From: Jaapia argillacea MUCL 33604 | Taxonomy: Eukaryota > Basidiomycota > Agaricomycetes > Jaapiales > Jaapiaceae | Assembly: GCA_000697665.1 (NCBI GenBank) | Contig: KL197709.1 | Span: 3,296,583 to 3,360,582, forward strand | Length of the DNA stretch: 64,000 nt | Direction of reading: 5' to 3' | In this document: positions 37,400 through 61,249 of the stretch, one piece after another | How the letters are laid out: each line of letters starts with the position of its first letter | Position numbering within the stretch: position 1 is the stretch's first letter | The notes under the pieces: model-generated | Told to the model about the DNA's origin: nothing | What the model saw: only the letters and a program-made list of their open reading frames with translations | Databases searched by the model: none | Position numbers and translations under genes: made by a program

Positions 37400-38570
37400 T
37401 CAGACTTTCTTCACCGCCGGCCAACTTCTACAGAATCGCCATTCCCACCAACAAACTGTATGGGACTCACATTGTGGGTACCATCCACCATCAAACATGC
37501 TACGAGCATATTCCAACAGTCCTAGTGCTATAAACCAGAGGAAGATCCAGGTAGCTGATATCTCCTCAATAATTGCTAAGTGTTGTTCCATAACATCTGG
37601 AACCGATAAATCCGAGAGGTCAGTACCCCCATAGACACCTAAAGCAAAGCTCCGAATATTTGGAAGAATGGTTTTGTCGTGTGTCATCAACTTGAGGATA
37701 TGCAGGAACTGAAATATTGTCACCCTTCAAGAAAACTACAATCAGCAATTCCAATACTTACCTGCTTCACTGCATTCACCCCATTGTAATCGACCTCAAC
37801 AAAAGATAATTGCAGTGAATTGAGGCTCAATAGCCTCAAAATGAGGATCAAATCGGCATCCGAGCTGACGGAGAACTGGATGGTGGTAACAGTACGCCCA
37901 TATTGTGAGCGGAGTAGCACAAGGAAGTGGATAAGTTCTCCTCAGGTGAGGATCTCTGTGGAAGTCAAGACTTCGACGCTTCTGGAGTAGATGATATGGG
38001 AAAGGCGAGCGCATGAGTTACAGTTAAGGATGCAGAGTTTTGGCAGGTAAGGGTGAACTTTTGGTATGGGTATCAGAAGATCGGCAAGTGTAAGTCACGA
38101 AGTGGGGTGAGGGATGATACCCTCACATTCCAGACTCTCGATCAGTTGTTCCCGACTGTACTCCATGACCTGGAGCGATAAGGAGATAAGCTCGGGGAGA
38201 CATTTGAGAGTCTGGGATAGTAGTGGGACGTTATGGCAATCGTGGATGTAAGAAACTGAGAGATATGTGAGGATGCGGGTATAGCATAAATATTGGGGCC
38301 TCTGAGCGAGGGTCAAGTAGCACCGGGGGGCCTTGCGTCCAATCGATAGCACATCTGTGTAGGTGATGCGCACGATAACGTCGTGAAGATATCTGCAAAC
38401 TCGCAAAAGAGTAAGGCGATCGGCTTGTGGCAGCTCATTGCATATCCCATGAATGAGCTTGCACGGTACTATGAAAATGGGTGGTCTACAGTCCTGCTTG
38501 TCAATATCGGCAGCGAAAAGAGGAAACCACTTACATGATGGCGCGCAATGTCAACAAATCCATCAGAGAG
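37400..38570 (-). CDS. F-box-like family protein
   Basis: Spliced minus-strand gene of the same family as 15583, 58245 and 59941. The F-box-like start reads ICNELPQADRLTLLRVCRYLHDVI near 38390-38450 after a GTAAGT...TTCATAG intron. Then come VPLLSQTLKCLPELISLSLQV and LIESLECEGIIPHP (38095-38240), leucine-rich sequence at 37720-37920 (LLSLNSLQLSFVEVDYN), and a C-terminal exon 37400-37723 ending FIALGLLEYARSM..GGWYPQ..VCWW. That matches the family's FG..EY...W.P...LFWW ending. A probable short first exon is near 38540-38570. Frame changes between pieces at 37900-38090 may be introns or damage; I could not settle this. Probable SCF adaptor (inference). Confidence 0.6.
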
Positions 38571-39165: not shown

Positions 39166-39175
39166 TTGTCGTGGA

Positions 39176-39450
39176 TCTGGGCCACATGAAAACAAAGACA
39201 CCGCGATCAGGCATCATCAGGGAAACAGCTGGGATCTTCCATCCTGTTATGGGGTGGGGAAAGGAGTCGGTGGAAACCATTGGTTCAATAGTGTTGAACC
39301 TGAACTTCATGAATCTGGGCCACATAACAACAAAGACACCGCGATACAGGCATCATCAGGAAAAGGGTTGGGATCTTCGGTAGATTTCTGGGGGCAGAGA
39401 AGGGAGTTGGTTGAAACCTCTGGTTCAGTAGCGTTGAACCTGAATTTCAC
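39176..39450. repeat. Tandem duplication, two ~137-bp units
   Basis: Unit 1 (39176-39311) and unit 2 (39312-39450) both run from TCTGGGCCACAT.A.AACAAA through CAGGCATCATCAGG and GGGATCTTC to GTTGAACCTGAA.TTCA. The units differ by scattered substitutions and small indels. Confidence 0.85.
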
Positions 39451-39887
39451 CCACAGCACACTGGACGACAAGACAGCCACCTGAATATTTTGCTATGAAA
39501 ATCGGCGGAGCAAAGGGTGAAACGACTGACAATGCATCTGATTCCCTGAGCTGTTATACACCTGATAATGCGTCCATAGATATAAGGGCTCAACATTCCA
39601 CAAAAGAACAAAACAGTAAACTTGATAGAAGCCTCCCACAATGTTCTGATGACTGAGAGACTTCACCATGAATGTGCAGCTGATCAATCACGATCGTACT
39701 ATCAGATGTTTGGAGCACCTGAGCCGTTGTAAAATCAGCCATATGAAGTATAGTGCTGAGAATTGCCTGATCCCAGCAATAACTAGTTGCACCTGAAGAA
39801 TAGAACACATCGAAACATCTGCAAGAATATCAAACAGAGCCTTGGCTCGCTGAGTTACGGGTGACACATTCCAGTGTGACCAACCCA

Positions 39888-40205
39888 TTCAGCTATTTTT
39901 TCCAGTAGTAATGGCCAGCGGACCATGCATATCGACCATTGTTAATGTGCCAGCGGACTCGGCCGACATGTGTCTGCGGCCCATTGTTAATGGCCCAGCA
40001 GACATGCCATTAGTATTGTGTCAGCCGACTTATACCATTAGGCAGCTGAACCAGTAGTAATGGCTCAGCTGACAATGCCAACACGTCATTAGTAATGGCT
40101 CAGCTGACCTTGGTAGAATATATGCCGACGATCAGTCCGCTGTACATTGATAATACACTCGCGGACATTCCATTAGTAATGGCTCAGCCGACCTATATAT
40201 TTCAG
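39888..40205 (+). repeat. Left terminal inverted repeat with subterminal motif array
   Basis: The outer ~110 bp pair with the right end. Inside, a motif of the form (A/G)TAATGG(C)(T)CAGC(G/C/T)GAC recurs many times: GCCAGCGGAC near 39913 and 39950, CAGCAGAC near 40003, TCAGCCGAC near 40022, TAATGGCTCAGCTGAC near 40060 and 40095, TAATGGCTCAGCCGAC near 40178. Such clusters are typical transposase-binding sites at element ends. Confidence 0.9.
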
Positions 40206-40847
40206 TGCCGGCAGCAGATTATCCACTTTTTGGGTGAGTGCCAGGGACCTGCTCATGCCACGAGACCCAATAGGATTGTAATAGCAATCCTTTGCATTTT
40301 GAGCGATGACCCCTAGTTTGCGGTTGTCGGGCATTCTGTGGTAATGTTTGCGGGGACCAGCAGGAACCCAGCAAATCAGTATATTGACAGAGAATTATGT
40401 GCGGACGACTGCATGTTACACTGGCATGATCGCGAGACTTGTAGCTGGTGATAATGCTATCAAAGGGCATCTCAATCCAATCCGTTGGGTCTTAATTCTG
40501 CAGGCAATGGCAGCGCACAATGTGCGGTGAACAATGTTGTGGATGTTAATAGTCCTGAATGTTGGGATGCGACCACACAATCATTGACAATGATTGGACG
40601 CTGGCGCTGATAGAATCAAACAGTGATAACCTGCTGAAATATTGGTTGACGTTGCGAGACGTTTGCAAGACCGCCGGACAGAGCAGCACTGAACCTGACA
40701 ACCAGATAAAAATCTTTGACATTTCTACGAGGGAGTAGATACAATGACAGCGATGATTATACCAATCCAGAGGAAAGAATGTGGAGCATAGTGGGGGAGC
40801 AAGGTAAATACAAGAATGAATTGGACACCGCAAAATCAAACGCAACC

Positions 40848-43195
40848 TCAAGACTGCGGCAATGACACATAAAACCCTACACGCTTCTTGAGCTCGCGCA
40901 TGTCAGCGTCATGAGCCTTCTCAAGCTTTGCAATGTCATTGCTGGTAATCGCGACGGAGCGCAGATCCAACAGACCCTTCCTAGTTGAGTCAACCTCAGT
41001 CGAAAGCTCTTCACAAAGCTTTTCCAGCTTCCTGGACTTGGCCTTGAGGGTTGCGACATCATCGCAGAGGGGCTTCAACTCCTCCTCGACAATCTTCTCC
41101 GTGGCCTTGTCAACGGCTTGTTGGATTATCGCATTGAGCTCATCTTGGGTTCGCTGGAATAAGATAAGATTCGTGAGCAGAGGATGACAACAAAGGGATG
41201 CGACACTCACCGGCAGAATTCCGACCGCATTCGCAATGCGATCTTGAAACTTGGGGACAAGGGGGTAAGACATTGGAACGTCCAACACAGCAGATGACGC
41301 TACAAAAGCAAAAAGGTTAACCTTCAAGGGTTCAAAGAGAGTTCAAAAGCCTCACCTTGAATCTTTACCTTTGGATCCTTGGGTTCAAAGTCTAAATCGA
41401 GTATATGAGCTCCTTCAAGCTAAAGTAGCAGAAAACATACCTATGGTCGTGATCTTGCTACCTCCGGCAACGGGCTTCGGCTTTGGTGGGAGATGAACAA
41501 TCAGCTGCAAGCTCTTCCCTCCTTCCTTCAGAGGAGCCTTGGGCTTCTCAGGCTCAGCAATGTCCTCCTCACTGTTGACGATAACCTCCTTCAACTTAGA
41601 CTTTTTGGAGCGACTGGGTCTCTCAGGCGGCGGAGCAACAGCCGGAGGATCGGCATCTTGCACGGTAGCCTTGGGGGCACCTCGTTTGGTCTTGGGAGGA
41701 ACAGGCGCAGGAGGTTGCAATTCGTTTGTGGGATCCACGGGAGGATCAGCATCTGGCTTGTTACCTTTTGCAATACCTCGTTTGAGTTTAGGGCAAACCG
41801 GTGCCGGAGGTTCCAGCTCGGTCTGAGGTTCCATGGCAGCTGGGACAGCCCTCTTGTTGGGGATGTGAGGGGCATCAGGTGGGAGACCACTAAACACGGT
41901 AGTTCCTGGCCCATAGACAGGACCTGGTAGCCCCATGGGCTCCACATCCTTTGTGGTTGCCTTGGCCTTCGACTTCCCCTTGTTGGGGGGGCGAATGACT
42001 CGGATGGGTTGAGCCTTGGGATCGAAGTAGGGGTTGGGTATAAGGGCGGAGGTAGTCCCCTTGTGGCCGCAGTTGTAGTGCTTTGCAGTGCACCAGAGGC
42101 AGTTGCCGCCGTCCTTATAGTTCGTGCATATGGCGTTTGCACGAGCACAAGTCACGCAAGGCGTAGCAAACATCTAAGGGACATGAAAAACAGTCTCGCA
42201 CAGATGATATCAGACTCACCATCCGAAACAACTTCGTGAGGTCAACCAGGTAACCTGAGATGGAAGCATCCAAGATCTCCAGAGGCTCATTCGCCGCATC
42301 CTTGGACTTCACTCTCTTGGGAGTGACCTTATGAGGGGAATCCAGCGCGGGATGCTTCTGCCTCGATGAACCAGCCACACACTCTCCACCCTCCGCAACT
42401 TCCATCAGGACATCCCCACCATCGTCGCCCAGATCCATCTCCTCATCTTCCAACTCCTGTCCACTTGTATCTTGGCCCCCACCCTCCTCCACAATTGCAG
42501 CCTCCTCCTTCTCACTTTCCCTCCCCACGGTCATATCGGCATCTTTCATCGGAACATCCTGAGCATCGGCCTTACTCTTGCCCTTTGCGATGGCAGGGAT
42601 GCGAGCTGAAGAGGGTTGAGGTGGAGGAGGGAGGAGGCAAGGGTTCAAGTGTGCAGAGGGAGCAGAGACAGGGGTCACATCGCCAGAGATCATCTGAGGA
42701 TCGACAGATGGAGCTGGAATCTGTCAGCGACATCATTGAGAAATCAAGATCAAACATACCAGAAGCATCCTCTGCTAGCCAAAACTTAGCAGCCATGGGG
42801 CGATCATGCACCCATTCTGGCAATTCATCCTTCCAGAAGCTGGCATCAACGTTGAAATGATCTGGAGATAGCTCAATCAGGTCTGCAGCTGAGAGCCTCC
42901 TCCTCTGCGCGACTGCTCCCCATTTGAGGTGTTGCAGGTCTGCAACGAGCCGTGTAAGCCTGAGGGGACGGTAAACATCCAGATAGGTATTGACAACGTC
43001 CCGAGCAGCCGACAGAGCACTTTCAAACTGGTCAAATTCATTTTCAATGAAAGGAATCCAAGCCTCGAGGTCACGCGGACTAGCGTTGGCAATGCAAGAG
43101 TGCCAGAGGTTAACACGGTGAGAGAACATGTAGAGGACGTAAGAGAATGGCCTGAGGGCAGCCTTAGCAGCGTTGATGCGTTCAACAGGGGCCAT
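40848..43195 (-). CDS. KDZ cargo: Zn2Cys6-like, proline-rich, coiled-coil protein (697 aa)
   Basis: Six exons with clean GT-AG introns and one open frame: 42760-43195, 42220-42713, 41441-42173, 41356-41391, 41211-41299, 40848-41153 (2094 nt). The N-terminal ~145 residues are helical (AAKAALRPFSYVLYMFSHR). An acidic, low-complexity linker follows. Exon 3 opens with CVTCARANAIC then CLWCTAKHYNC, spacing C-x2-C-x6-C-x8-C-x2-C-x6-C, the fungal binuclear zinc-cluster pattern. Next come proline/lysine repeats (PPAPVPPKTKRGAPKA type) and a C-terminal coiled coil (TLKAKSRKLEKLCEELSTEV). Lies just inside the left inverted repeat. I infer DNA binding, perhaps of element sequences; function is not known. 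No stop or frameshift in ~2.1 kb of coding sequence. Confidence 0.85.
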
Positions 43196-43406
43196 GGTAT
43201 GTGACGAGTAGAACAGTGGTTGTGTTGAGTTGGTTGACTAGAGTAGCAAAGGTCGCAGTGCAAGATATTCCCGGGAACAGCCGGCAATGTGGACGTGAGG
43301 CAAAGGCACAACCACCGTGAGAGTTTGGACTTCATCATTGGCCGCGCAGTCTGCATACCTCTGCCTTTGATGTCTTTGCTATTCAATTCTGCTTTTCAAC
43401 GCCAGT

Positions 43407-44962
43407 ATGGACGCTCGCTTTTTGCCTGAGGACTCCGAGATTCTGCAGAATGAGCGCAGTATGAATCATGTAATTCCTAAGTTGATGGCATTGCTGAGAA
43501 TCATTGCGTCACCAGAAGCGACTCCAGCGTCTGTTTTTGACCCCATAAAAGGGTTGAATTGGTCTGCCGGTACAACACTATCAGCGCTGTTTGAGAGGGG
43601 ATATTTGGGTCAAGTCAATGAAGGAATTGCCGGCCCATCGCTGAGTATCATAGATAGAGGCGACTTGAATTTTGGTGCGTTCATTCTCTTTGGGAGGATG
43701 TTTCATTGCTTCAACTATCCGCACATCAGATCAAATTCCCCTGTCGCCGAGTCTTAGTTGGGTGCATTCATCGACCATTGGCAAGAACGACGACTTCAAC
43801 CCTGGGTTCGAAGTCCCGCACATCGTCCCGCAAAGCGACCCAAGGAGCCCTTCCATCGTCTCAAAGTTTGGGATACCATTGCCAGTCCAGGATTTGACTC
43901 TAGGTTGTCCTATGACCCCCCCTACTCAGGAGGTCGATCCTATGGACTTGACCCCTCCTCTGGCTTCTTATGAACAACCGGTTGAATCCAGCTGCGTCGA
44001 CTGTCATCTCATGGACGCTGGAGAGTTGACACCACCTCCACTTACATTTCGACAACTTGCCGCTGACAGTGGCTCCAACATCAAAGAGCCTTCAATGGTT
44101 GTCGATGCTGTCAGCATGAATCTGCCCATTCTCGACCCCTTCGATCTCTCTCCACCGCCTCCAACCCAATCGCAGCCTAGGCTTTGCAGCCCTTTCAACT
44201 TGTCACCACCTCCTCCATCTAACCCCCAACAGTTATTTTCTTTCCGGCCAGAATCTCATGATCCACCTCAATCCCCGAGCGTCACACCTGTCCCCAAGAT
44301 GCTGCATCCCATTGCGTTGATGCCGGCAATAGAGATTCATGACGTACCAAAGTCCTCAACAATGCAGCGTAGACCCAAGCCGCAGAGGGTTCAAATTCCA
44401 TCAAAGAGAGAAAATTCGGTCATTGAGGTCAAAATGCCGACTGTAGTCCAACGCCCCAATCTCACCATCCAAACTGTCTGGCATGTTGATCAGCCTCCGA
44501 GGACAGAGGCATCACAGATCCAAGTCAACATAGGAGACGATGCAAACGACTTGACTTCACTGACCCCCGAGCTCCGCAAACGCATCAAGAAAGAAATAAC
44601 TCCTATTAAGATACCTGGAGTTGATGCAATTGACCTCACCAAATCCACGCCACCCGTTCACACCACATCTGCTCAAAATGCTGAGGCTGGACCCTCAGAT
44701 GACCAGCCGCGTTTTGCTACAAGCTGGGGAGTGTTTCCACCTCCTCATCAGCGACCTTACCCATCTTCATATTACAATCAGCTGGTGAGTGTATCCCAGA
44801 ATACCTTTGTACCAATCTGATTTCAAGCAGCCATCTCACTGGGGAGTTGATACCACCGGTTGCGAGGTGTTCTGGTCTCACCACGTTGGGACAGCATTGC
44901 TCAATGATGAGAGGAACGTCTTTGAGGCTGGGCATTCGTTCCAGGGTTATCACAATCTCTGA
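43407..44962 (+). CDS. KDZ cargo: proline-rich protein (485 aa), unknown
   Basis: Three exons, 43407-43674, 43730-44784 and 44828-44962, with GT-AG introns and one open frame to TGA at 44960. The N-terminus (MDARFLPEDSEILQNERS) is helical; the centre repeats short blocks such as DLTPP, ELTPPP, DLSPPPP and NLSPPPPS, looking like degenerate short linear motifs; two DLT(S/K) motifs follow in the acidic C-terminal third (NDLTSLTPELRKR, AIDLTKSTPP). The last exon gives HWGVDTTGCEVFWSHHVG. It is divergent from the zinc-cluster gene, starts 211 bp apart, and the two may share a promoter. Function unknown; likely disordered scaffold or activator (inference). Confidence 0.8.
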
Positions 44963-45179
44963 GCGACTTTGAATGATGTGGAGACTCAGGGTAGGTTGCT
45001 GGAGATGCAGCTGAAGTCGCTGCAATCTCTTGCTGCCACCATTGAGTATGCGGAGGCAGCGGACATTGTATCATGATTCAACTTTGTACTTATTGTGCAA
45101 TGTAAATAATACTTGACTCTAAGGCTAAGACAAAGGCCTACAGAATGGAATGAATGGATCTGTGCGCCCACCAGGCCAA

Positions 45180-47928
45180 TCACCTCTTCATCCTGGGCTT
45201 CTTGGAAAGTGTCCTTGGCACAGCAGGCCTCTTAGGTGCTGGCTTTGCAGGACATGGGCTATGCGAGATGTACAACTTCTTCACCGGAGTCACGTCAGAT
45301 CCATCCGACACTTTGGGCCTCTTCTTAGGAGGACCCGTCTCTGACACATGGTCAGTTAAAGCTGGAACAAATGTGTACAAACTCACTCAAAGTAGGCTCT
45401 GCAGGCGTAGACCATTGCTTCTCCGCCCTCTTGCGTTTCTCAACGCGGACCAGTAAAGGAAGCGGTAGGTTACCGGCATCTGTGAGAGGACTCTGCGCGG
45501 CTATACAGAACCATCAGAATCAAAAAATGTCAGAGAATCATTGAGATATGCAGCATACCGGCAGTTGTAGGTGTAGGTAAAGAGGTAATAAATTTAGGAG
45601 TAGCAGTGGGTGTATTGACATCCATCGCATTCCCTTTCAAACCATGCAAGTCCGGGTTCTTGAGGGTCATTCGACAAACTGCAGTAAGAAGCAAAACCTA
45701 CCTGTATGAGGGGGAGAGTGTGCCAGAAGACTAGGTTCATTTGCCGAGCAGTTGGAGCTACTGGGCCCAGTTGATTTACTGCCGCTGGACTTTGGAAGGG
45801 TCGGCTCCTTTGGTTTTCCAAAGGCCGGCTTCAGCTTTGGATAAGGCCTGAAACTGGCATGATCTATCAATGAATAGTGAGCACCGTTCAGGACATTTTG
45901 CACATCTCTAACCAATGCTCGCACCGTGCAGGCTTGGATCCATTGGATCCCTGCCCAGAGGTCGTCCAAGGCTGGCTGCCTTCGCCTTGCCAAATTGCAG
46001 CTGTGTTTTTGGATATTGCTCGGAACCTGAAGGTTCTGCAACACCATCAGCACATACCTTCCACAGATGCCGGGACATACCACTGTCTGCTGGGACACCT
46101 GTCAAGGTGTCACCTTCTGGGAGGGAGGCCCCTTCTCACACTACAATGGAAGCCAGTCAGTACATGGAGCCCAAGTGAGAGTTGAGTATTATCTACCTTC
46201 TCCGTCAGAGCCTGCGACGTCAGATCCATCGCCCTTATCACCTTCCTCATCGCCTATTCATCTATCAGACATATCCAGGCCAGAAATAAGAGTATCCTCA
46301 CTGGTGCGGTAGTCCTCTTCCTCCATTGAGGCAATCTCGTCCTCGGTTTCATCCTCTGGCACAGTTTTAGCCTTTGACTTACCTTTGGATCTAGTCGTGA
46401 TACTTTGACCGGAGCCAGTTGAATTGGAATTAGTCTGCTTGGAAGTTGATTTTGTCTTTCTGCTGTGTTTCTCCTTCCCTTTACCCTTCTGGGCCTTTGG
46501 GTTGAATGGTGGTGCCTTCCGGGCCTCTGCGGATACAATCAGCAATGTGGGAATGTTGGATAAAACAAATTGTCACCTTCCAGTGTCTTGGACGTCCGTG
46601 TCCACCTGAAAACACTGTTCCGCGCTGTGTTGTTGAGCTTCATTAGCATGTCATAAGAATAGTCCCTGTGCATCTGGGATGGGTCCTGCAACACTCCGCT
46701 GCTAGGAATCCACTTTGGGTCCATCCAAAGCTCGGGCTCTTGAGACACCTGCGCCCAAGGTACCCCAGACTTTCCGCCGGATTGCTGCACTGATTGCATA
46801 GATTCAGTGTGGCTTTACCCTCCACAGTGTGCTAAACTTACTCCAAGTGAGGTTGAGGAAATCTCAGAGGACCACTTCGCACACAGCCTTCTTGTTTGGG
46901 AGGGGATCCGGCAATATGGGATAGTTATTGTTGTCTATTTCTAACTGCAGGTTCTCTTTCACCTTTTTATTATGACTGGGCATCGACCTGGGATTGCTGG
47001 CATCAGAATTCTTGTCTCGATCTGAGCCTCCTAGTCAGATAAGTCAGAGTCAGCGAATGGGATGGCATACTGATTTCTGTCTTTAACCATCGAGCCCAAT
47101 GGACCAAAGCCTCGCTCTCCTCAAAAGCTTCGTTCTCCCAAAGAAAGCCACAACCCGGCGTGTCGATGCTACATCGCGTTCAGCGCCATGGGGACCAAAT
47201 TAAGAGTAAGCAACAAACCAGAAGTAAATAATCTTCCCATCCGACCCTTTATATCCAAAGAGAGTCACTGCATACACTCCCAGCTTCTCCTGCATGAGCC
47301 GCAGAAACTTGGTGACCGATGCCATCGCGCGCTTCTCTGCCGCCCTAAAAGAGTGTTAATACCATCCTCGATTAAAGCCGTGTGTCTCACCTCTGTTGCA
47401 CGGCGGGAGGAGGACCCAGCCTGTTCCACTCTGCGGCACACTTTTCATGCTCTCTCTTCATATCAGGGTCGAGACCTCTCATGAGTTCGCTGACCACAAT
47501 CTGGTAATACTTGAATGTTCCCTTGGGATCATCGGACTCACGCTTCTTCTCCTGCTGCCTCTCCTTGATGTCTTCAAACATGAGGTATTCAAGAACAGAC
47601 TTGGGACTCCACTTCCGCATGAAAAAGCCAATGAGATTGCTGACCGAGTTTGGCACCTCATTCAACATCCAGTTGGATACCGCCTGCCATATTCGTCAAG
47701 CATGGGCTGGGAAGTGATTTCAAATCTTACCTTCGTGATGCTCATCTTGACCTTTGTCGTCACCAGACCAACAGCTTCCAAACGCGTGACAATGGCCTGG
47801 GTAGCTTCATCTAGAAGGGGCTTACGCTGATGCCGTTTGGCGGCGTTGTACCGCTCGCAGAAATCTATGAGAACATCGATGTCGGGGTCAGTGAGGTCGT
47901 AACTGGGCGCTTCTTGTCGGGGAGGCAT
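45180..47928 (-). pseudogene. KDZ cargo: unknown multi-exon protein, damaged
   Basis: Exon 1 (47731-47928) starts MPPRQEAPSYDLTDPDID; exon 2 (47391-47683) holds a helical module (FKYYQIVVSELMRGL, AAEWNRLGPPPAVQQR); exon 3 gives AAEKRAMASVTKFLRLMQ and YAVTLFGYKGSDGKIIYF. Later exons include GCGFLWENEAFEESEAL (~47110), NKKVKENLQLEIDNNNYPIL (~46930), PELWMDPKWIPSSG (~46720), and a lysine/serine-rich tail with KKRPKVSDGSD and TLSKKPRMKR (45180-45386). An in-frame TGA near 46865 sits in VL*DFLNLTW, fitting CGA>TGA. The AEWN..GPP pattern is common to a large Agaricomycete family I associate with transposon cargo; its role is unknown. Confidence 0.65.
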
Positions 47929-48003
47929 GAGTGTGGGAAGGCAGAGAGGGGGTGTATCAACAAAGGAAAATTTTGGAAATCATGATGTGTCACCATCACC
48001 TGA

Positions 48004-48119
48004 GTCGCATAAAGTAATTACAGTCGTGTTGCGTCGCATGAAGTAATTACAGTCGCGTTGCGTCGCGCTAAGTAATTACAGTCGCGTCGCGTCACACGAT
48101 GTGATTACAGTTGCATCGC
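48004..48119. repeat. Tandem repeat, 4 x 29 bp, CpG-rich, in divergent promoter region
   Basis: Units start at 48004, 48033, 48062 and 48091. Consensus begins GTCGC(A/G)(T/C)(A/G)AAGTAATTA and ends CAGTCGCGT(T/C)GC. Each unit holds a GTAATTAC palindrome (GTGATTAC in the last) beside CpG-dense sequence. Differences among units are largely C/T or G/A at CpG sites. It lies 76 bp before the minus-strand gene starting at 47928 and 552 bp before the TET/JBP start at 48671, so it could regulate both. Confidence 0.95.
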
Positions 48120-48670
48120 CCAAAGCATGACATTTATCCTGGATATTGAGCTCACAACTTGCAATCGGTCAGATAAGCTGCTTGCCATGAGCTTGAATAG
48201 TCTGGGCTCAGATCATACGTAGTGTCTAGCAAACCAGACATTGAAACATTTCAATCTGGCTATACACCGGTCAGCAGACTTGTCAAGCAAAATTTGACTC
48301 TGGCCAGAGAAGCAGGATGGCCTGAAGTGTGCTCGAAAGCATCCAAAACCTAGCTGTTGAAGTCAAGAAAAGAGTGCAAGACATCGGAAAGAGGATAGGA
48401 AAGGTTGTGGTGTATTTGATGGTCAACGATGCATTGAATTACTCTGACCTTCATAGTTGTGTCGAGGACAACCATTTTTCAACTCAGCTCATGGAATGGT
48501 TGATTTGAGGCCCATTCACAGAGCAAGGGAGGGAGCAACACCTAAACCCAATGAAAGATGCATGTGGCTGGAGCTGGCGTGGCAGACAGCCTCCTTTATC
48601 CAGCGCGAGACACTAGCCGATCACTCTTTTGCGCCTTTCACCACAATCATTTATCACCACTCTCACTGTC
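48120..48670. promoter_or_regulatory. Upstream region of TET/JBP gene
   Basis: No convincing gene (a plus ORF 48457-48696 overlaps the TET/JBP start in another frame). Probable promoter and 5' leader by position only. Confidence 0.4.
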
Positions 48671-49884
48671 ATGCCTCTCTTTTTAGATCAGACTGATATT
48701 AATCAGGCCCTAAAGCTGGGACATGAAATGTCCAGGCACCTGAACTTTCAATTCCGGGTCAAATTGGGCCATAACGTGGTTCCTGGGACTCCTTTACTGC
48801 GAATCCCTCAAATCCTGCAACAGGAATGTGAGCAAATGTCCTCCATTCTAGCAGAGGCATTTTTACGCCACAGTAAGCCTCCTCTGGTCTCTGCATTTCT
48901 CTCACCAACCCTTCGCAGTCAATCTTGACTGGACGGCAACCGACTACGTGCACCATTTGGGTGTCAAGGCTGACGGCTTTCGATCTAAATGAGAAGAAGT
49001 TGTGGACTCTCAATACGGCCATATCTATGGTCCCAATTTCCCAATTATCACAAAACCCTGCATGATCGTCGACGCCAAAGGGTACATTCTGTTCTGGTTT
49101 CTTCCGGGCCTGTTGCACCCAGACATACAGGTCAGTTCAAGCCTGTTCTGACCTTTGGCATGCCATTGACTATTCGCAGAACGATATGTTTCATGCCGCG
49201 GCCCATTTGAATCCTCAGCTAGTCGGAACAGGGTCTTGCGAGAAGACCACGGGTTGGAGAGGTTCACCCGCGCTCCTCAAACCAAAGGACGAATGTCCTC
49301 ACATTGAACCTGGGCTACTCTTGGGCGGCAGGTATGTGGTGTCATTGTTGCCAGCCATCTATTGTCCGAGCAGTTTCAGGGCATCAACGATGACCTATGC
49401 ACCTCCAAGACCATGCAGAGCATGGCCATGCTTACAGGTACCTAACCTTGGCTGAAGTCCATGCTCAAGGGGAACGCCGTGATGAATGCTGTGTTGAGCG
49501 TGATTCATCCTGACCTTTATCTTGTAGGGAGCATCGCCCGCAGTCTACTGAGGGAATCAGATTCCCACTCCACAGTGATGGAGCATTGGAATTCTGTGTA
49601 CTCAGGCGTCACGGTCATTACCAACCGAGAGACACCTGTTCATAGGGATCCCAATTGCCGACTGGGCTGGTTCGACCTGCTCGCTACTGTTGGACCATAT
49701 CAATATGCGGAACTGGAGTTGAGGGGTCTTGGACTAAGGTTCCCTTTGCGCACTCAGTGGATATGTGATCAAGCATGGTGTCTCGCCCAGCAATGGAGAG
49801 AGGGTCTGCTATGCATATTTCATGAGGGATAGGGTGTTGTGTAGATTAGGAGTTCCCACGGCCCCTCCAGTTAGAGTGGACTGA
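48671..49884 (+). pseudogene. TET/JBP family 2-oxoglutarate/Fe(II) dioxygenase, KDZ-linked
   Basis: Members oxidise 5-methylcytosine (TET) or thymine (JBP) in DNA. Exons from 48671-48872, 48919-49130, 49180-49331, then to 49884. N-terminal region: CMIVDAKGYILFWFLPGLL and NDMFHAAAHLNPQL, conserved in fungal members. Core: LKGNAVMNAVLSVIHPDLYL, NRETPVHRDPNCRLGWFDLL (iron ligands H and D of HxD), GPYQYAELELRGLGLR, then GSLCALSGYVIKHGV (distal iron-binding H) and GERVCYAYFMRD (arginine that binds 2-oxoglutarate). The end, RLGVPTAPPVRVD, fits the family. All catalytic residues are present, but in-frame stops near 48991 (TGA) and 49450 (TAA) and a frame change near 49740 imply the copy is dead, unless unusual splicing avoids them. 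Immediately upstream of the transposase, as known for basidiomycete KDZ elements. Confidence 0.9.
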
Positions 49885-49994
49885 TTTGGTGCAAGTCCCA
49901 CCGGAAGCCAGGCGGCAAGTGCCGGATACCCACAACTGTGATTACACTGCTCTCCTTGGGAATCAATAGCGTTCATCTGCTTCACTCCGTTGTT

Positions 49995-52900
49995 ATGCGA
50001 TCCCGCGCCCCTGCCAAACGAGGCCGCAATGTCGATGATATTGATCTGACACCAAAGAAGAAGACTGTTTCAGCCTATCTTGACAAGGATGGAAATCGTC
50101 GCAAGCATATTGTTGATGCCAGGATTCAGCCGAAATTGAGTCAACCCCTGCCAGAGCCCAGGACACCTTCCAAAACACCTCAGGGGACCCGTAGCCCCCA
50201 GATCCGCGAACATGCGCAATGTGTGCTGGTGATGGAATCTGGCGCTGCGGCAACTGTCTTGGCAGACCTTTGTTATATGCATCATGTTGCCAAACCGCTC
50301 ACCGGCATCTTCCATTTTATTGGGTGGAGCAATGGTTGGGCGGCTTTTTCCAACCAGGTTGGCTATCGAGCCTTGGGATCGAAATTCATTTGGGACATGC
50401 TGGAGCCATATGTCCAATGAATCAATGTCATTTTCCAGACGATGACCTCTTTCAGCAGCCCCACGCATCTTCGGCGAGATATAAAGATCCTTACCAGTCC
50501 CAGCCGGTCCCTCCAATGCCTTACAGCTCTCAACCGATTCCAGGTAACCCAAATCAAGATGCTGGGCCCTCTCGATTTCCTGGATCTATGGAGGGTTGTT
50601 CGTCGGCACCCGTCGACAAAAGTAATCCTTTTGTTGTTGAGGATGACAACAATGAGGAAGGAATAAACTGGAGGGATGAGTTGGATGAAGCCCTTCTTTC
50701 CGAGAAGTCAAACTTCAACAGGCCGCGGCCCAAACTTTGCAGTCGAACCATGATTCTCGTCGACACCTCGGGAGTGCACGAGCTGACCATGAACTTCTGC
50801 GGTTGTGCTGACAAGCCCCCCAACACAGTTCAACTTCTAGACTTAGACCTTTATCCTGGTAGCGTCAAATGACCCGCGACTGCATTCACATTCAAGGTGC
50901 TGGATGACTTCACCCGGCATAACCTCGAATGCAAGACAAATACTTGAGAGTACTATGAAACACTCCGCAGAGCAACTTGACCAGTGTTTCCTCGAACTGT
51001 GCCAGTACGCCGTACATCGCTTGTCATGAGCACCGCTTAACTGTTGTGATTCAAGGATCGTTACAGAGAAATGATGAGATGCTCTCAGCAATGGAGACAC
51101 CTGAAGACACTCAAGTGGCAGGGATTTGGCTATGGCCCCTTTCGTGAGCCAGGTCCAGGAGAGCTGGCTCTCTTTTGTCTGGTGTGTCCTCAGGTAGGAG
51201 TAAATTTGCCCGACAATTGGGAGGAAGAGGCGGAAAGGTGCGAGGTGTTCAGTCTCCACTTAACTCCACCTAGTCATCTCCCTTAGATTACCCTGGCTCT
51301 TCTCTTGGCAATTGAATATGGATGGGAACTTCAAAGCCGAGCAGACCCGTTGCAAGTATCTGGACGACGACCTTCCCTTGACACAAGGTAGCCTGTTTTT
51401 GTGCAAGGATATGCAGTACAATCAGTACATTGCTGGAGCAGTTGAACGACCTCAGGTAGGCTTTTTTGGAGCGGCTCTCATTCTGGCGTTGATGCCCCCC
51501 TTCTCAGAAACCAACTTGTCACGACCACAAGGCTCAAAGTCAAGCAAATACTCAGGCGAAGCACCTTGCGATCACCGGCATTGTGGCCGTCGCGTGTGCC
51601 CAACATGGTTGTTTCTGTCCTGGGTCCTGTGCAAACTTGCAAAAGGGGGAAAGGTGAGGGGCATATATTCTGACCTCACCATCCCTCTGATACACGATTC
51701 AAAATAGGCAAATCAACATGGACTACATATTGGCTCAAGCTCTCAACCTGACCAAAATTCCTGGTGTGACTCCAACTATGGTCCTCTATGACATTATTTG
51801 TCAATATGGCGTGCATGTCGCGAAGAGGTTCCTTGAAAACACTCAATACCTTGGCCTCTCATCAGCCCTAAACTTGATTATGGGAATTGGACTCTTCCAT
51901 GTTCACGGTCACCAAGACGCATGTGGACCCAGGTACTCTCTGAACTACATGATTGGTGCGGGTCAAGTGGATGGAGAGGTTATTGAAACCCTGTGGGCTA
52001 GGCTGAATGAAATCGCCGTCAGTTGCCGGCCGATGGGCCATGGGCATCGCACAGGAACGCTTGATTTCCACATTTTGAATTCCAACTGGCAAAAGACGAT
52101 TGGCATGGGTAAGTTGCACCTATTCGTCTTGCGGCACTCAATTGAATCTCCGCAGTTTCCTCCCTCTGTCGCAAGTTGAAGAGAGCCTACAAACACGTCA
52201 GGCTGAGTGCCGAGGCATTTGCTGACCTCAATAGTGTCACGACGGAAACACAGGTCCATAACTGGAGAAAGATGGAGAAGGCCGCTGCCGAAAACCGTCG
52301 GGATGATGTATCAGCCATGGATGTTTATGTGCCTATCATGAAAAAAGGTGCTGCACCCACTATGCCTGCCTTGCTCCAATCCTGATACATTCATAGCTCC
52401 AACACAGTCTGAAATTCAGCACAACCTGTCCCGGAAGGAAGGCGGAGTCAGTCCAATCAAAGGGTCCGCAAGCTGGTTGGCATCTGGTATTGCAATTCAG
52501 GAGGCCCAGTGCATTATATCCAAGTTCACGGTGCCGACGCTGACTGTTCTTCAGAGTTGAACTTGCTGCTGCGGTCAGGAAGATGGGTCGCCGGCCTACT
52601 GTTGAGCAACTGAATCAAATTGAGGAAAGGAGGCGGAGGCTGGATGGTCGAATCAACACTTTTGAAAGGTTGGCAGCTCGCTACCTTGTTCAGGATGCCT
52701 CATTGCCCAACGCAGAGCCTGCCGATGATCCCGGCATTGCTATTGTGCATGCTGATGGTGCCACTGGAGAGGATGAATATGAGATTGTGTTCGATGAGGA
52801 TGAGGATGCTCTCTGGGAGGACGACTTTGACTATGATGCAGTTCAGGATCAAGCGAACCCCGACAATGGGCCAATTGATGCTGAAAAACGACACATATCC

Positions 52901-53692
52901 CTGCCGACCACTTTAGGACTTCGGCAATGTGCTCACCGAGGCTTGAAGGAAATTTTGGAGGAGGAAGTGAGCCTTCGCATTGGACAGGCAAATGATCTCC
53001 TGCAGCAAATTCACATTGTGCTTGGCCATAAATCCTTTCTGTATCGCACGGAGATTCGACATAACAAATCTCAAAGTAAGAAGACGTGGTCCTGGTCCTG
53101 GGTAGGTCATGTCGAGGCCACGGTGCAGAAGAACTCCCGGCTTTACAAACAATGTAGGAAGGCAATGGGACAAGGAGGTGCCAGTGAGGACCTACTCGCG
53201 AAATACAAAGACCTCAAACCGGAAGATCTGAAGATACAGACAGGGGTTGTTGATGATCCTGCTGCTCGCGGCACAAGACAAAACACTTTAGCTTGGTTTT
53301 GGACTGTGAACCTGGCTGCCAATGCAGATGAGAAGGAGAAGAACGACTATCTCGATGACTGTGAGTATGTTTTTTGTCGTTCTACATCATCGCTGAAGGT
53401 CTCCAGTTTACTGGGTCCATTGGTTGTGTGCGAGGGCTATGAGGGCGAGATGGGCTGAGGAATTCACTCTACTGATTCATGAGATGGATTGGGTTGTGAG
53501 GTTCTTCCACCAGCGGGAAACAGTCTGGCGGACCCAAGCAGACACCGCCTTGGCTGCCAACCTCTCAGGTCATTCTTGCTATGCCGCACGACAGTCTCAC
53601 ATGTGGAAAATGTTTGCAGATAGAGCCGATGCTCAGTTTGTGGAGACTCGGAGTGCATATCCACCCCCTCTAGAGCTCCATTATTACTCGTA
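49995..53692 (+). pseudogene. KDZ transposase
   Basis: Start MRSRAPAKRGRNVDDIDLTP (basic, probable nuclear signal). A cysteine cluster of the CxC2-like type follows (ILVDTSGVHELTMNFCGC, QLLDLDLYP) near 50750-50860; then QWRHLKTLKWQGFGYGP and ALFCLVCPQVGVNLPDNW near 51090-51220; MDGNFKAEQ near 51317; CHDHKAQSQAN and ACAQHGCFCPGS; and the RNase-H-like core with YDIICQY (51787), FHVHGHQDACGPRY and GEVIETLW (52000). The C-terminal half gives LPTTLGL, VSLRIGQANDLLQQI, LGHKSFLYRTEIRHNKSQ and MDWVVRFFHQRE. Several short introns. In-frame TGAs at 50870, 50945 and 50978 lie in one frame (VK*PATAF, NT*EYYETL, AT*PVF), and a frame change occurs near 52380, so this copy looks inactive. Confidence 0.93.
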
Positions 53693-53796
53693 GGGTAGCA
53701 TTGCAATCTGTTTGACTCCACGTATTTGTCGCTGTTGGGTAAGCCACATTGGACTTGAACTGTGTGTCACGCAGCCTCATAATTCCTCCAACTTCA

Positions 53797-54963
53797 ATGG
53801 CTTCTTCCTCATCCATTGCACAGGCGCCCCAGGATATCAGATGTTGCAAACGCCGCAGAATGCTTTGGATGAACATCCGGTGTATCGTCGATGGCCGCAA
53901 TGATGACTATCCAGAGGGCACTGCCCCTTTGGACACAGAGGCAATTGCTCACTGGAAGGTGATTAATAGGCTTCAGGCAGAGAATCAACTCATCCTTGAT
54001 ACCATTGTCGGTCGCCTGTCGTTGGCCATCCAGGCGTAAGTCATGCGGCACGGCCAAGGAGAGACCGTATCCCAGGCCAACTTAATCAACTGGTCCCAAG
54101 GCATTCAGACTGAGTTGGTGAGTTCATTTGATTGTCATTTGTCAGGATAATAACACTTCCACAGTTTATTTACCAGCTGAACTGGGGATACGCTTCTGAG
54201 TCTGGTATGGTCGATGCCTTACCGCACCCCGCGGTTCAGGATATACATAGGTTTTTCTGCTGCTGCCAGCCTCCGCAGAAGGACTGGTCTCCTGCTGTCG
54301 TGGAAATTGCCCGCATTTCAGAAGACCTTGTCTCACAGGCTGCTCATTCCCCTCTGCACCTTAATCACTGGTGGGACAACAACAACCTTCTTGATTTGGT
54401 CAGCGGTGTAGCCACTTGTCTGAATGTACAGGTATGTCTCTTCTTCCTGTTCATTCTGGCATTCAATTCATTCTTGCTAGCTTCACAAAATCAGGGAGAT
54501 TACAGCTGCTATTGACAAGCATAGCCAAGTGATCACAGCGTTGCCGATCCTGAGTGATCCCAGTAGACTGCCCTTTAATGGTGCAATCTTGGGATCTACA
54601 GTCTGTTGTCCTTCTTACTCCTCTCTCCATCTATTCATTTTCTTCGTTTTTTAGGTTGATGAACTTGATGGTGAGCTGCAAGTGGCTCACACAATCGTCT
54701 ACCGATACCATCCATGACAAGGCAATCTGTCGCCCCTCCCCTCTCATCTCTTTGAAGCGATGGAGTCCTACATGCCGGAACTTGCCTATCCCAAGTGTAG
54801 CGATGGCCATACCCTCCAGCTCATGAGAAGGAATTATCTGGACCAGTACAATGCGGTGCTGGAGGCAAAGCGAGTCTTCTGGGAAAAATTGTTTGTGCTG
54901 TCATTGGCGTCGAGTGTTTATGATAAGGTCATGTACAAGACTTATCCTGATGCCGAGGATTGA
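53797..54963 (+). CDS. KDZ cargo: unknown multi-exon protein
   Basis: Starts MASSSSIAQAPQDIRCCKRR just after the transposase stop. Exon 1 continues DTEAIAHWKVINRLQAEN; a middle exon (about 54170-54430) holds FIYQLNWGYASESGMVD, DWSPAVVEIARISEDLV and HHWW-like LNHWWDNNNLLDLVSG; after introns the last part begins at 54658 (VDELDGELQVAHTIVYRYH) and ends MESYMPELAYPKCSDGHTL and YNAVLEAKRVFWEKLF to YPDAED. A TGA in the last part precedes MESYM, so damage or a further intron is possible. No domain recognised; same strand as the transposase. Confidence 0.55.
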
Positions 54964-55078
54964 GAGGATGTATGTATTGTACGCATATGATCTTGCAATG
55001 GAGCAGCATGAGTTGCCAGTGGTTGAATTCAATGCATCAATACAATTACAACAATCGCGGGACTGACTACCCTCATCC

Positions 55079-56336
55079 CTATGCCTCAGCAGTCAGTGCC
55101 TCCGCAAACTGACGTTTCAGCTCCATGATGCCTAGGAATCTCTCAGCCAGAAGATCCCAGTTGAACCGCGAATAGATGTGAAGAGCCTTTGCGCTGAGAT
55201 TGAGAACTCTGGAGCACAGTTTCTGCTCCTCCTGAATGCATATGTCAATGCCGACCCAGATGTATCTGCGTGAAAGTATCACTCACCATGATATCGTTGT
55301 ATTCTCCGATCCAAGTGTCGCATTCCCCTTCACTCTTCTGCAAAAGTCCGCGCAAATACAAATGTTCCCCTTGAGCGCAAGAGCTTGGTAGTGGAGGANN
55401 NNNNNNNNNNNNNNNNNNNNNNNNNNNNNNNNNNNNNNNNNNNNNNNNNNNNNNNNNNNNNNNNNNNNNNNNNNNNNNNNNNNNNNNNNNNNNNNNNNNN
55501 NNNNNNNNNNNNNNNNNNNNNNNNNNNNNNNNNNNNNNNNNNNNNNNNNNNNNNNNNNNNNNNNNNNNNNNNNNNNNNNNNNNNNNNNNNNNNNNNNNNN
55601 NNNNNNNNNNNNNNNNNNNNNNNNNNNNNNNNNNNNNNNNNNNNNNNNNNNNNNNNNNNNNNNNNNNNNNNNNNNNNNNNNNNNNNNNNNNNNNNNNNNN
55701 NNNNNNNNNNNNNNNNNNNNNNNNNNNNNNNNNNNNNNNNNNNNNNNNNNNNNNNNNNNNNNNNNNNNNNNNNNNNNNNNNNNNNNNNNNNNNNNNNNNN
55801 NNNNNNNNNNNNNNNNNNNNNNNNNNNNNNNNNNNNNNNNNNNNNNNNNNNNNNNNNNNNNNNNNNNNNNNNNNNNNNNNNNNNNNNNNNNNNNNNNNNN
55901 NNNNNNNNNNNNNNNNNNNNNNNNNNNNNNNNNNNNNNNNNNNNNNNNNNNNNNNNNNNNNNNNNNNNNNNNNNNNNNNNNNNNNNNNNNNNNNNNNNCT
56001 CGATTCCACCTCTTGCCTTTGCCTCGGCCATCAACGTCCTGATCTTCCCCCAGTTGTATACAGCCCGTTCAATTGCGTCGGCTTCCAAGAGAGGTCTCAA
56101 ATTGGCCTGCCAGCGCTTCCTATCCTCCTGCGGCACTTGTGAGCATTGAATTGTTTCAATTTTGATGAAACTCACCAGCATCATTTCGGCCTCTCCATGC
56201 ACTTAGCATACTCAGCGCTGGTCTCAAGCCCTGCATACTCCTTCAGGAGCCAATGGGCACACTTGGGCAGGTGCCAATACAGTAGGAGCGTGCGATCCAA
56301 GTCCGCAAGATTGGTGATGTTGGATGTGTCGGGCAT
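55079..56336 (-). CDS. KDZ cargo: unknown protein, interrupted by the assembly gap
   Basis: Start at 56336: MPDTSNITNLADLDRTLLLY, then HWLLKEYAGLETSAEYAKC; after an intron VPQEDRKRWQANLRPLLEAD and AVYNWGKIRTLMAEAKARGG run into the gap. Beyond it come LRGLLQKSEGECDTWIGEYN and, after another intron, GIDICIQEEQKLCSRVLNLS to the stop at 55079. Helical throughout, no motif known to me. An in-frame TGA follows ERPK near 56180, before the first intron. Confidence 0.5.
55399..55998. other. Assembly gap (600 N)
   Basis: Exactly 600 unknown bases inside the KDZ element; the round length suggests an estimated or default gap. Confidence 0.99.
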
Positions 56337-56521
56337 AGTGAAAGATGACTCACGGGAATGTCCCAGATTTGTGAAGAGTACAAGTCCGCAGATTTGTGAT
56401 ACGCTTAGGCCAGGCACAATCTAATCTTATCGATCCGGTGCGGCCTTTCAGATTGTAAAGTACGTGTCTGCGCACGGTCACACAAAGTTGTAATACGCTG
56501 TGGCAGGCACATTAATCTACT

Positions 56522-57601
56522 CATCGATGACAATGGGGTCATTGACGTGCCCGGATGCAGAGCTGGCACTCCTAACAAAATCAACATCCTCGTCATCGCC
56601 GCTCTCATCCTCAGTGGAATCCCAAACAGCCGACATCCCTACCGAGGAGAGATCGTCGTCTTCCTCTTCCATCACTTCCTCCTTCATCTGACATTCTTCT
56701 TGCCATTCCATCACTGTAATCAACTTCTGGAACATGTCCCACCCAAAGGGACTCCGTCTGACGGAGGAGCCGATGAGGATTCCAAGTTCTAATTCACACA
56801 ACTGCTTGTCATTCTAGATGTAGGATTAAATCGCAGCATTCCTGATGAAGTCGCTTGGTACATACAAGTAGAACACCAGCTTTCTTGAGCCATCACCTGA
56901 GATAGGCACCCGTCGTTCCTTGCAAGGCCGCAATTCTGAGACAGCGAGCTCGCTTGTCAAGTCCTTCATAGAGGATGATGAGAGAGCCGATTTTCGCAAG
57001 GTCGATCTTGGCCATGATAGATGACAAGAAACGATGGAATTGAAGAAACGAGGTGCTGTGGTAACACTCTGCGGTGTCTCGCATGGATTGCCGGCAATGC
57101 CGGCATATGCCAGGATAATCTTGGATGGAAGGGGGGCAGGCACCTCAGTTCACACATCACACGGACCGGGCAAAGTGGTATTGAAATTTACAATGGCATG
57201 AATAGTTTGTACCCACAGTTTTGGTGTCTCTCAAGTCCCCCCTGCCTTGTGATGACTTTCCTGAATTGCATCCCTTTTCTCCACCATCTTATTAAATAGC
57301 CGTTCACAAGGCCTCCAATTGTAGTCGCTCTCCTTGATGGACTTGCCAAGGAGCAGTCTCAAGGCATATTCGATTATCGACTGGTCGCACTGAAAATTGG
57401 ATCCATCAGTGATCCGCTGAGCTGTCAGCCGCATATGCAGGAGCTTACCAGGAACTCTTTTGCCTTCTCGATCCACTCATTATAATCCCAGATATTTCCA
57501 ATGCGCCGCGAGTCAGATATGAGCTCCTCAGCTCGCGCAGGCAGGTTTTGATATCGTAGAATGGTGCGATCAAGGTTCTCGAGGGTGTCTACCATGGACA
57601 T
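56522..57601 (-). CDS. KDZ cargo: unknown protein next to right inverted repeat
   Basis: Exon 1 (57449-57601, 51 codons) begins MSMVDTLENLDRTILRYQNL and ends EWIEKAKEFL; exon 2 begins CDQSIIEYALRLLLGKSI. The middle (about 56830-57230) does not resolve into one frame. The last piece (56517-56790) reads CELELGILIGSSVRRSPFGW then an acidic tail (EEEDDDLSS...DESGDDEDVDF) ending VIDE. The start MSMVDTLENLDRT echoes NLADLDRT of the neighbouring gene, so the two may be old duplicates. Function unknown. Confidence 0.5.
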
Positions 57602-57784
57602 GTTGGTGGTTGATATTGATCAAGCAATCGCGGTCAGCTGTCAACTTATATGGCTTGCCAGCCAGAGGCGGAGTGATCAACTGCCTAATATGTATGATCA
57701 CATGTGTCCAAACCCACTTGCGAATGAGCAGGTCAATGCGGCTGTTCCTGTGTCGTAACCCGGGAGCTGCAATGAAATCTATTC

Positions 57785-58001
57785 CGCATCTGATTTCTGG
57801 AGTGCCGGGCGGACGTCGGCTGGCCAATAGTAATGTACGTACATAGTATGTGTACAAGGTCGGCTGATACATTAACAATGGTATGTCCGCTGGCACATTA
57901 TCATAGGCAGCGGACACCTGTCGGCCGAGGTCCGCTGGCACATTAACAATGGTCGATATGCAATGTCCGCTAGACATTACTATTGGGTCAAGATAGCTGA
58001 A
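57785..58001 (-). repeat. Right terminal inverted repeat with subterminal motif array
   Basis: Reverse complement carries the same motifs: TAATGTCTAGCGGAC, TAATGTGCCAGCGGAC (twice), TAATGTATCAGCCGAC and TTACTATTGGCCAGCCGAC, interspersed with CATTGTTAATG. Pairs with 39888-40205 over at least 110 bp. Confidence 0.9.
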
Positions 58002-58244
58002 CAGTGTGGTGTGACCTCCGATTTACCAGTCATGTCTAGGAAAGAACTCAAGCATCGTGATAGGGAACCATGGTTGAACGTCGCCACTTACCCAAATGAG
58101 TTAGACCCAACATAGACACCAGAATAAGGATCCTAGCATTAAATGAAATCTCCAAAGGGTGTCAAATACAAAGAATTCGTAGCAACAACAAGTTTGGAGA
58201 GTAGCAAACATTTAAATTTCCGAAACGACGGCCTCCCAATGCAA

Positions 58245-59446
58245 TCAAGTTTCCCACCTGACAAAAATCTCATTGGCATACTTCTGACCAAATACAGCCC
58301 GCCACCAAAATAATGCGTCGTGAGTTGGCTTGGGTGTCCAGGAACCATTGCAATGTGATCTCCAATACTCAAAGGCACCAAATGTCAAATTGGTAAAGGA
58401 GGGGTGCGATGTAGACAGGCATCGTAGTAATGTGAGATGGTGATCAATATGAAGCGGTTGGTCTTGCTGCGCGACTGCAGAAAGTGGGTTCCATCCTGAT
58501 GAAGGGCTGATGAGGAAATGAGAAATATCGGGGAACAATATGGTGTCGCAATTGGCAAGGGTTTCAATGATACATTGGGCCTGACAAGAGAAATCATTTG
58601 GAATTAAAAAAATATGTTGAGAACACAAGATAGACTCACCGCTTGCAGATTCGGAGGGCCCTTCCTGTCAATCCTCAGATGCTTCAAGACTGGCATATAT
58701 GTACCAAGCACCCGGATGACAAGGCAAAGATCCACTGCGGCTACCAACCCGAACGACAATGTTGTCAGATTGGCCAAGGCAGGAAATCCAACCGATGCAA
58801 TCAAATCAGTCAACTCTCGTTCTTCTAGTTCTTGAGTAATTGAGAGTGTGCGGATGCAATGAAATGCGGCCATCCGAGATAGACGAAAGGAGTTGTGACA
58901 AAGGAGTGTATGAAGTTGGGGGAGTGTTCTCATTTCAGGAGGAAATTTAACCAGCAAATCTGTGAAGGTATATCGTGCAGAAGGACGCCGAATCAGCCAC
59001 TCCCTCTCGAGACATTCCATCAATGTCTTCCTGCAATAAGGGGTAACATCGATGTCCAAGACACAGAGGTGCAGTACATATTTGAGTGCCCCGCACAATA
59101 GAGTAATGGATTGACGATCTGTTACTGATGAAACCACCAACTTCTGCACAATGGAAGCATAGGCCGGTACGGTTATGATGGTAAGGAAGCATTGCTTCGC
59201 TTGTCCGCCAGAGACTTTGATGTCTCTGTATAGGGCCCGAGCAGCGAGATCATGTAAGTCACGACTAACTTGCATGATGTGTGGTAGGTCACGGACTTTG
59301 AGGTAGCGTATAATCCTATCAGATCTGTCGAGTGGAAAGGATGAAGTGAATGGATGCAAACTGTGCCCTTTCGTTGAAACAAGCTGTGCAGTGAATAGTG
59401 AAGGCACTTACATTGGATTAGGCGAACGAATCAGCGTCTCCATCAT
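58245..59446 (-). CDS. F-box-like/LRR-like protein, intact (351 aa)
   Basis: Three exons, 59412-59446, 58640-59324 and 58245-58580, GT-AG introns (GTAAGT and GTGAGT donors), open to the stop, 352 codons including it. F-box-like region at residues ~13-45: SDRIIRYLKVRDLPHIMQVS then LHDLAARALYRDI. Leucine-rich repeats follow (LLCGALKYVLHLCVLDIDV, FPALANLTTLSFGLVAAVDL), and the family's C-terminal block reads LTFGAFEYWRSHCNGSWTP then ALFWWRAVFG. This is the best preserved of the four family copies here and defines the gene structure for the others. Probable SCF ubiquitin-ligase adaptor by F-box homology; substrate unknown. It starts 495 bp from the divergent copy at 59941. Confidence 0.85.
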
Positions 59447-60959: not shown

Positions 60960-61249
60960 AACCTGTGTTTCGGTCTGTGCAACTTCCGTTCCGTGTTGTA
61001 TTTTCCACCTTGTATTGATTGTAAAGAAACAACCAAATGGTTCCCTGAGAAATGGTGCACAATTAAGTAACCTGATCCTAGGCTTGGTATCCAGGAGTGC
61101 TACATATTGAGAAAGTGATGAAAAATTGCTACGCAAATAACCTCTGATTGATGACTGACCACTACACACCCCATCCAAGAGATCTATTCTCAGACGACAC
61201 ATACTCATCAATCCAGCTGTGAGCCACGCCAATAAGTCAACCACAACCA

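Follow-up and report, generated by a model that had tools for sequence, protein, structure and literature searches.

A structurally whole, probably coding-dead TET-bearing KDZ transposon, best placed with Kyakuja, in Jaapia argillacea

The 64-kb stretch of Jaapia argillacea contig KL197709.1 analyzed here (the window) very probably holds a single TET-bearing (TET+) KDZ transposon that is structurally whole, dead in its coding content, best placed with Kyakuja and located with F-box-like genes on either side, in a fungus that is Agaricomycete-type by the kind of its TET and transposase. A first-pass annotation of the window had described a KDZ element at 39888-58001; the size of ~18 kb stands, and the exact ends, 39881 and 58008, lie 7 nucleotides (nt) farther out on each side. 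A large TET-bearing KDZ element now has exact ends, a target-site duplication (TSD) and candidate transposase-binding repeats, the sequences with which to look for empty sites and for relatives that are intact. The element also illustrates in detail how a TET-bearing copy has decayed; such copies were already known to exist (PMC12730594). The features that define the element are the following.

39881-58008: whole element, 18,128 bp, of which 600 are N and 17,528 determined bases, termini 5'-CA...TG-3'
39874-39880: left TSD, GTGTGAC, exact match to 58009-58015
58009-58015: right TSD, GTGTGAC, abutting the right element edge
39881-40073 (+): left imperfect terminal inverted repeat (TIR), from alignment with the reverse-complemented right end
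57815-58008 (-): right imperfect TIR, aligned to the left end
39937-40192 (+): left array of 22-nt repeats, six inward sites and one overlapping reverse site
57859-57951 (-): right array of 22-nt repeats, three sites, all inward
48671-49884 (+): TET/JBP dioxygenase gene, CcTet-like, broken; from Pfam and the CcTet alignment, exon limits by eye
49995-53693 (+): KDZ transposase gene, CxC2 and KDZ DDE core; from Pfam, with a by-eye model of nine exons from 50195
55399-55998: assembly gap of 600 N within the element

Element limits and terminal repeats

The element is one bounded insertion with a 7-bp TSD. GTGTGAC was the sole flank match of at least 7 bp among 41 symmetric trims of the two edges, with a 5-bp match at trim -1. 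Random pairs of host positions match over 7 bp at a frequency of 8.5e-5 (200,000 sampled), which corresponds to ~0.0035 expected over the 41 trims. The limits are set at 39881-58008 because GTGTGAC directly adjoins both edges. At the left edge the flank ends in ...AGTGTGAC and the element begins with CAACCCATTCAGCTAT; the reverse complement of the right edge starts with CACACTGTTCAGCTAT, and the outermost 16 nt of the ends are identical at 12 of 16 positions without gaps. The termini are CAACCC... and ...GTGTG, giving CA..TG. A gapped alignment of both ends yields an imperfect inverted repeat of ~195 bp, with shorter inverted blocks of 57 nt at 91% identity (39902-39958 and 57930-57986), 27 nt at 85% and 47 nt at 79%. 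The 47-nt pair, 40148-40194 and 57857-57903, falls off the main terminal-repeat diagonal, like repeat units. Base composition steps at the element, with a guanine plus cytosine (GC) content of 0.50 inside compared to 0.446 (16001-39880) and 0.455 (58009-64000) outside. The ends, the TSD, the GC step and the KDZ, CxC2 and Tet_JBP matches inside bear out the earlier claim of a bounded KDZ element with both inverted ends in one assembly.

Both ends carry arrays of a 22-nt repeat with the consensus CATTRKTAATGKSYCAGCSGAC. Across the 64-kb window 10 sites reach 17/22 or more against this consensus, and every one is within the two ends (seven left, three right); 20 mononucleotide shuffles predict 0.5 per strand. 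A search with one 22-nt copy, allowing up to three mismatches, located five sites, all in the ends, versus 0.00 expected from 100 dinucleotide shuffles. Both search patterns were drawn from the element ends themselves; because the consensus was built from its own copies, the informative part is the absence of the 22-nt unit elsewhere in the window. In the clearest copy, at 40170, the 13-bp palindrome CCATTAGTAATGG stands directly before CTCAGCCGAC. The directional arrangement of the units at the two ends is consistent with a set of putative transposase-binding sites.

The broken transposase and TET/JBP genes

The KDZ transposase domain (PF18758) is matched with E = 2.9e-35 and 122.4 bits against a Pfam cut-off of 26.6. 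N-terminal to this core is a cysteine cluster that matches CxC2 (E = 1.6e-25, 89.8 bits); the CxC1 profile scores 25.7 bits, under its 26.9 cut-off. A KDZ domain preceded by a cysteine cluster, here a CxC2 match containing two stops, places the protein in the KDZ superfamily. A CoV_NSP13_ZBD match of 20 bits (cut-off 27.7) was dismissed as the cysteine cluster. The spliced model from 50195 to 53693 comprises 1033 codons, stops counted, and eight GT-AG introns of 46-57 nt that were picked by eye for an open frame; the gene limits were likewise set by eye, without transcripts. Its frame is interrupted three times, by TGA codons at 50870, 50945 and 50978. The first two (residues 690 and 715) are inside the CxC2 match and the third is one residue beyond it. 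There is nothing to splice out at the CxC2 stops because 85 residues (641-725) pair with 85 profile positions (19-103) with no net gap. A frame change near 50190 separates the probable N-terminus (ATG at 49995) from the cysteine cluster. The exons 3' of 50980 are free of stops in the by-eye model, the DDE core is open, and this clean downstream frame contains MDGNF, VLYDI and GQVDGEVIETLW at 51318, 51781 and 51961, which we take to be the D, D and E catalytic motifs. The transposase core (131 amino acids) gave three peptide-pattern matches in viral contigs, none encoding a relative, and no match in plasmids (tblastn). Between the two halves of the cysteine cluster lies a stretch of ~95 stop-free codons (50440-50730), presumably an insertion relative to other KDZ proteins.

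The TET/JBP gene is located directly upstream of the transposase gene, in agreement with the first-pass annotation, and is identified by a Pfam Tet_JBP match (E = 7.9e-10). It is homologous to CcTet of Coprinopsis cinerea (PDB 7vpn, 7w5p, 8jkk). CcTet (7vpn; near-identical 8jkk) aligns as two blocks in one frame, with a whole-sequence E of ~7e-13, and its C-terminal block aligns in another frame (E ~2e-4). The frame change lies between ~49716 and ~49753, with CcTet matches on both sides. A TGA at 48990-48992 is aligned to an Arg of CcTet, as expected of a CGA origin; a probable TAA at 49443-49445 lies where CcTet does not align and hinges on a by-eye exon limit. The HRD (HxD) motif and the equivalent of CcTet Asp337 are retained, and the third-ligand His of HxD...H is in a different frame from HxD. 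A Tet_JBP domain, HxD...H and Asp at the CcTet 337 position, all present here, are the features of AG-type TET proteins, for which the description and the CcTet residue numbers were taken from PMC12730594. Unlike CcTet, the gene is interrupted and encodes Cys at the Gly331 position, where Kyakuja TET proteins have Gly or Ser (PMC12730594). A 29-bp tandem repeat of 3.7 copies at 48004-48111, between open reading frame (ORF) cluster E and the TET/JBP gene, is possibly a promoter-region repeat.

The copy lacks the uninterrupted transposase and TET/JBP frames of an intact, autonomous element. The earlier description of the element as complete-looking therefore holds for its ends; it fails for the coding content, where stops and frame changes interrupt the N-terminal part of the transposase as well as TET/JBP, and for the 600-N gap. 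Because transposase and TET/JBP are both broken, movement would need outside help.

Placement with Kyakuja and competing explanations

Complete TET+ transposons were characterized in December 2025 by Kojima, who reported Kyakuja in five Agaricomycotina orders with a 7-bp TSD and 5'-CA..TG-3' termini (PMC12730594). The element has both features, namely GTGTGAC at symmetric ends and CA..TG termini. It resembles the TET+ elements Kyakuja-1_LB and Kyakuja-2_LB in combining a KDZ transposase and an AG-type TET/JBP with these ends (PMC12730594). Since such bounded elements are already published, it is a further member of a known TET+ KDZ kind. The specific architecture highlighted in the first-pass annotation is to that extent less of a first, given the bounded TET+ Kyakuja of December 2025, and the KDZ-TET linkage itself is already published (PMC12730594). 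Its distinguishing points are the inverted ends and the extra ORFs, compared with published Kyakuja by description. In contrast to the two Laccaria Kyakuja families, which have no TIRs, it has inverted ends and a subterminal repeat array (PMC12730594). Relative to published TET+ Kyakuja as described, it has apparently extra ORFs in both arms, and its genes are broken (PMC12730594). The Cryptococcus elements KDZ1, KDZ2 and KDZ3 also have a KDZ transposase, a cysteine-cluster domain, long inverted ends and a large size, theirs ~9-11 kb (PMC12810828). They differ in carrying CxC1 rather than CxC2, in TSDs of 4-8 bp and in having been shown to move, and the passages on them mention no TET/JBP gene (PMC12810828). 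In Pleurotus, CxC2 precedes intact KDZ copies (PMC7641404), and TIR motifs of KDZ and Plavaka elements are mentioned for Marasmius (PMC8290104).

By its TSD and termini the element is a candidate member of Kyakuja. Several observations count against a decayed Kyakuja element. The inverted ends of ~195 bp conflict with the reported lack of TIRs; this lack was not treated as Kyakuja-defining because it is stated for two families of one species. A decayed copy is atypical of the published consensus elements because Kyakuja TET coding regions are mostly not disrupted (PMC12730594). The same paper cites 46 TET/JBP genes in Coprinopsis cinerea, 32 of them likely active. The 1681 independent trims of the edges gave four matches of at least 7 bp. 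Three belong to the GTGTGAC block, one of them an 8-bp version, GTGTGACC, reached by unequal trimming; the fourth is another heptamer, CAGTGTG, reached with trims of -2/-7. Six in-frame stops are recorded across TET, the transposase and R2 (an ORF of the right arm, below), and the predominance of TGA, five of them, may reflect decay by C-to-T deamination at methylated CGA codons. This is only a suggestion, because CpG depletion is no stronger in the element (0.62) than in the flanks (0.54 and 0.66) and the three transposase stops are clustered within 111 bp; as a firm claim, CpG-deamination decay was ruled out by the equal depletion. There is also a small probability that the stops stem from assembly error.

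The 8-bp match is the kind of duplication expected of Zisupton, which has TIRs and 8-bp TSDs (PMC12730594), and the mobile Cryptococcus KDZ1-3 combine TIRs of 139-241 bp with 4-8-bp TSDs (PMC12810828). It is nonetheless unlikely that the ends and transposase come from Zisupton, or from some other KDZ branch whose TSDs are 8 bp and whose TIRs are long: symmetric ends give 7 bp with CA..TG, the Kyakuja rule (PMC12730594), and the cysteine cluster is CxC2, with CxC1 below its cut-off, where the Cryptococcus elements carry CxC1 (PMC12810828). That the element is still autonomous, with its stops and frame changes being assembly errors or spliced around, is quite unlikely. The stop-free exons downstream of 50980 would fit autonomy and the N gap shows that the assembly is imperfect, but two of the three transposase TGAs fall inside the ungapped CxC2 match and interruptions recur in TET/JBP, transposase, R2 and ORF cluster E. 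It is very improbable that the two ends derive from different insertions, or that the region is a nest of several elements with an accidental cargo set. Cargo ORFs that are partly eroded and have no known domain would suit such an origin. The TSD at symmetric edges argues against two unrelated insertions, and nesting is countered by a GC content that stays at 0.49-0.52 across the interior, N gap aside, and by a single further internal inverted pair of at least 25 nt (36 nt at 78%). In addition, blastn and tblastx at E 1e-3 found nothing in the remainder of the 64-kb window that resembles the element. One 26-nt pair at 77% (47872 and 59045) links the element to the outside and is taken as chance. 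The joined flanks detected no paralogous empty site in the rest of the window.

For the decayed Kyakuja element, a plausible history starts from an active copy whose transposase would have bound the repeated end motifs, perhaps through its cysteine-cluster part. As a DDE transposase it would have acted on the terminal repeats, most likely by cut-and-paste. TET/JBP may have oxidized 5-methylcytosine on element DNA and thereby relieved methylation-based silencing; an anti-silencing role of TET in TET+ transposons is a published proposal (PMC12730594). The stops would have arisen after the family's last activity at the site, possibly by C-to-T changes at methylated CGA, and the present copy would move only if an intact relative supplies the transposase.

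ORFs of the two arms and the surrounding window

The remaining ORFs flank the TET/JBP-transposase pair on both sides.

40848-43195 (-): ORF cluster D, left arm, one or two genes; no Pfam family
43407-44820 (+): ORF cluster L, left arm, proline-rich; no Pfam family
46258-47928 (-): ORF cluster E, left arm, apparently eroded; frame changes read by eye, sub-threshold Pfam match
53797-54963 (+): ORF cluster C, right arm, downstream of the transposase; no Pfam family
55999-56336 (-): gene R2, right arm, R1 paralogue; Pfam scan of whole frames only
56517-57015 (-): ORF cluster R3, right arm, acidic C-terminus; Pfam scan of whole frames only
57231-57601 (-): small gene R1, right arm, two exons, ~103 amino acids; no Pfam family

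About six ORF clusters are plausible as cargo, several of them apparently eroded. The first-pass annotation had counted at least six other cargo genes; this number is plausible as ORF clusters and lacks profile support. Its cargo set is defined in being bounded by the ends, and the ORFs are not proven genes or conserved; with one copy only, conserved cargo is not demonstrable. The left arm was said to hold two genes, and three clusters (D, L and E) were distinguished by eye. The several genes claimed for the right arm correspond to the C, R1, R2 and R3 ORFs, of which R2 runs into the assembly gap. Seven cargo models were compared with Pfam, of which D and L supplied two apiece and E, C and R1 one apiece, and all stay below the cut-offs; whole-frame scans that covered R2, R3 and the final ORF of D found no Pfam match in them. 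A scan of all six element frames, with stops read as X and E up to 0.1, gave matches solely in the right half, on the plus strand, in its three frames. A Radial_spoke_3 match in a cargo ORF (E = 0.077, 12.8 bits, cut-off 26.4) was dismissed, and Rfam had no match in the window at gathering score. Among the matches listed in a literature search on KDZ or Kyakuja with TET, TIR, TSD, cargo and subterminal repeats, the passages returned do not describe this cargo set.

Cluster D consists of an N-terminal ORF, a Zn2Cys6-spaced ORF (41415-42173) and a coiled-coil-like ORF (40848-41342). The middle ORF contains CX2CX6CX8CX2CX6C in the sequence CVTCARANAICTNYKDGGNCLWCTAKHYNC. Zn2Cys6 clusters are defined by the spacing CX2CX6CX5-12CX2CX6-8C, which these cysteines fit; Pfam returned no family at E up to 1 and no zinc-cluster profile, and the ORF was not filed as a Zn2Cys6 regulator. 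A single-sequence structure prediction of the first ORF (42630-43195) has a mean predicted local distance difference test (pLDDT) score of 45.6. In cluster C, the in-frame TAA at 54037-54039 could end the frame or could fall within an intron. R1 and R2 form a tandem pair with R3 between them and are 29.6% identical over 54 amino acids (blastp, E = 1.4e-4); R2 has an in-frame TGA at 56181-56183. It is conceivable, if rather unlikely, that the element belongs to a lineage of Kyakuja whose ends are truly inverted and whose cargo set regulates itself, in which the Zn2Cys6-spaced and small paralogous proteins would join the transposase on the subterminal motif and TET/JBP would erase methylation there. 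Such an arrangement would resemble a plant transposon system in which several proteins work with subterminal binding sites.

The transposon is inserted between two members of a family of related ORFs present in both orientations, at 15583-16089 (-), 38095-38550 (-), 58604-59407 (-) and 59991-60395 (+). The second and third of these are F-box-like, below the Pfam cut-off. Two related retrotransposon copies occupy 1007-11571 (-) and are inferred from their domains to be of the Ty3/gypsy type. In one, the frames at 1007-2485 and 2708-4864 are long and open and include a chromodomain integrase, and the other is present as shorter broken pieces (7831-11571). The 1-16000 stretch that holds them has a CpG value of 0.84 and is less depleted than the remainder of the window. 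Direct duplications with periods of ~149 bp and ~139 bp occur to the left of the transposon, in its flank, at 36447-36720 and 39169-39449.

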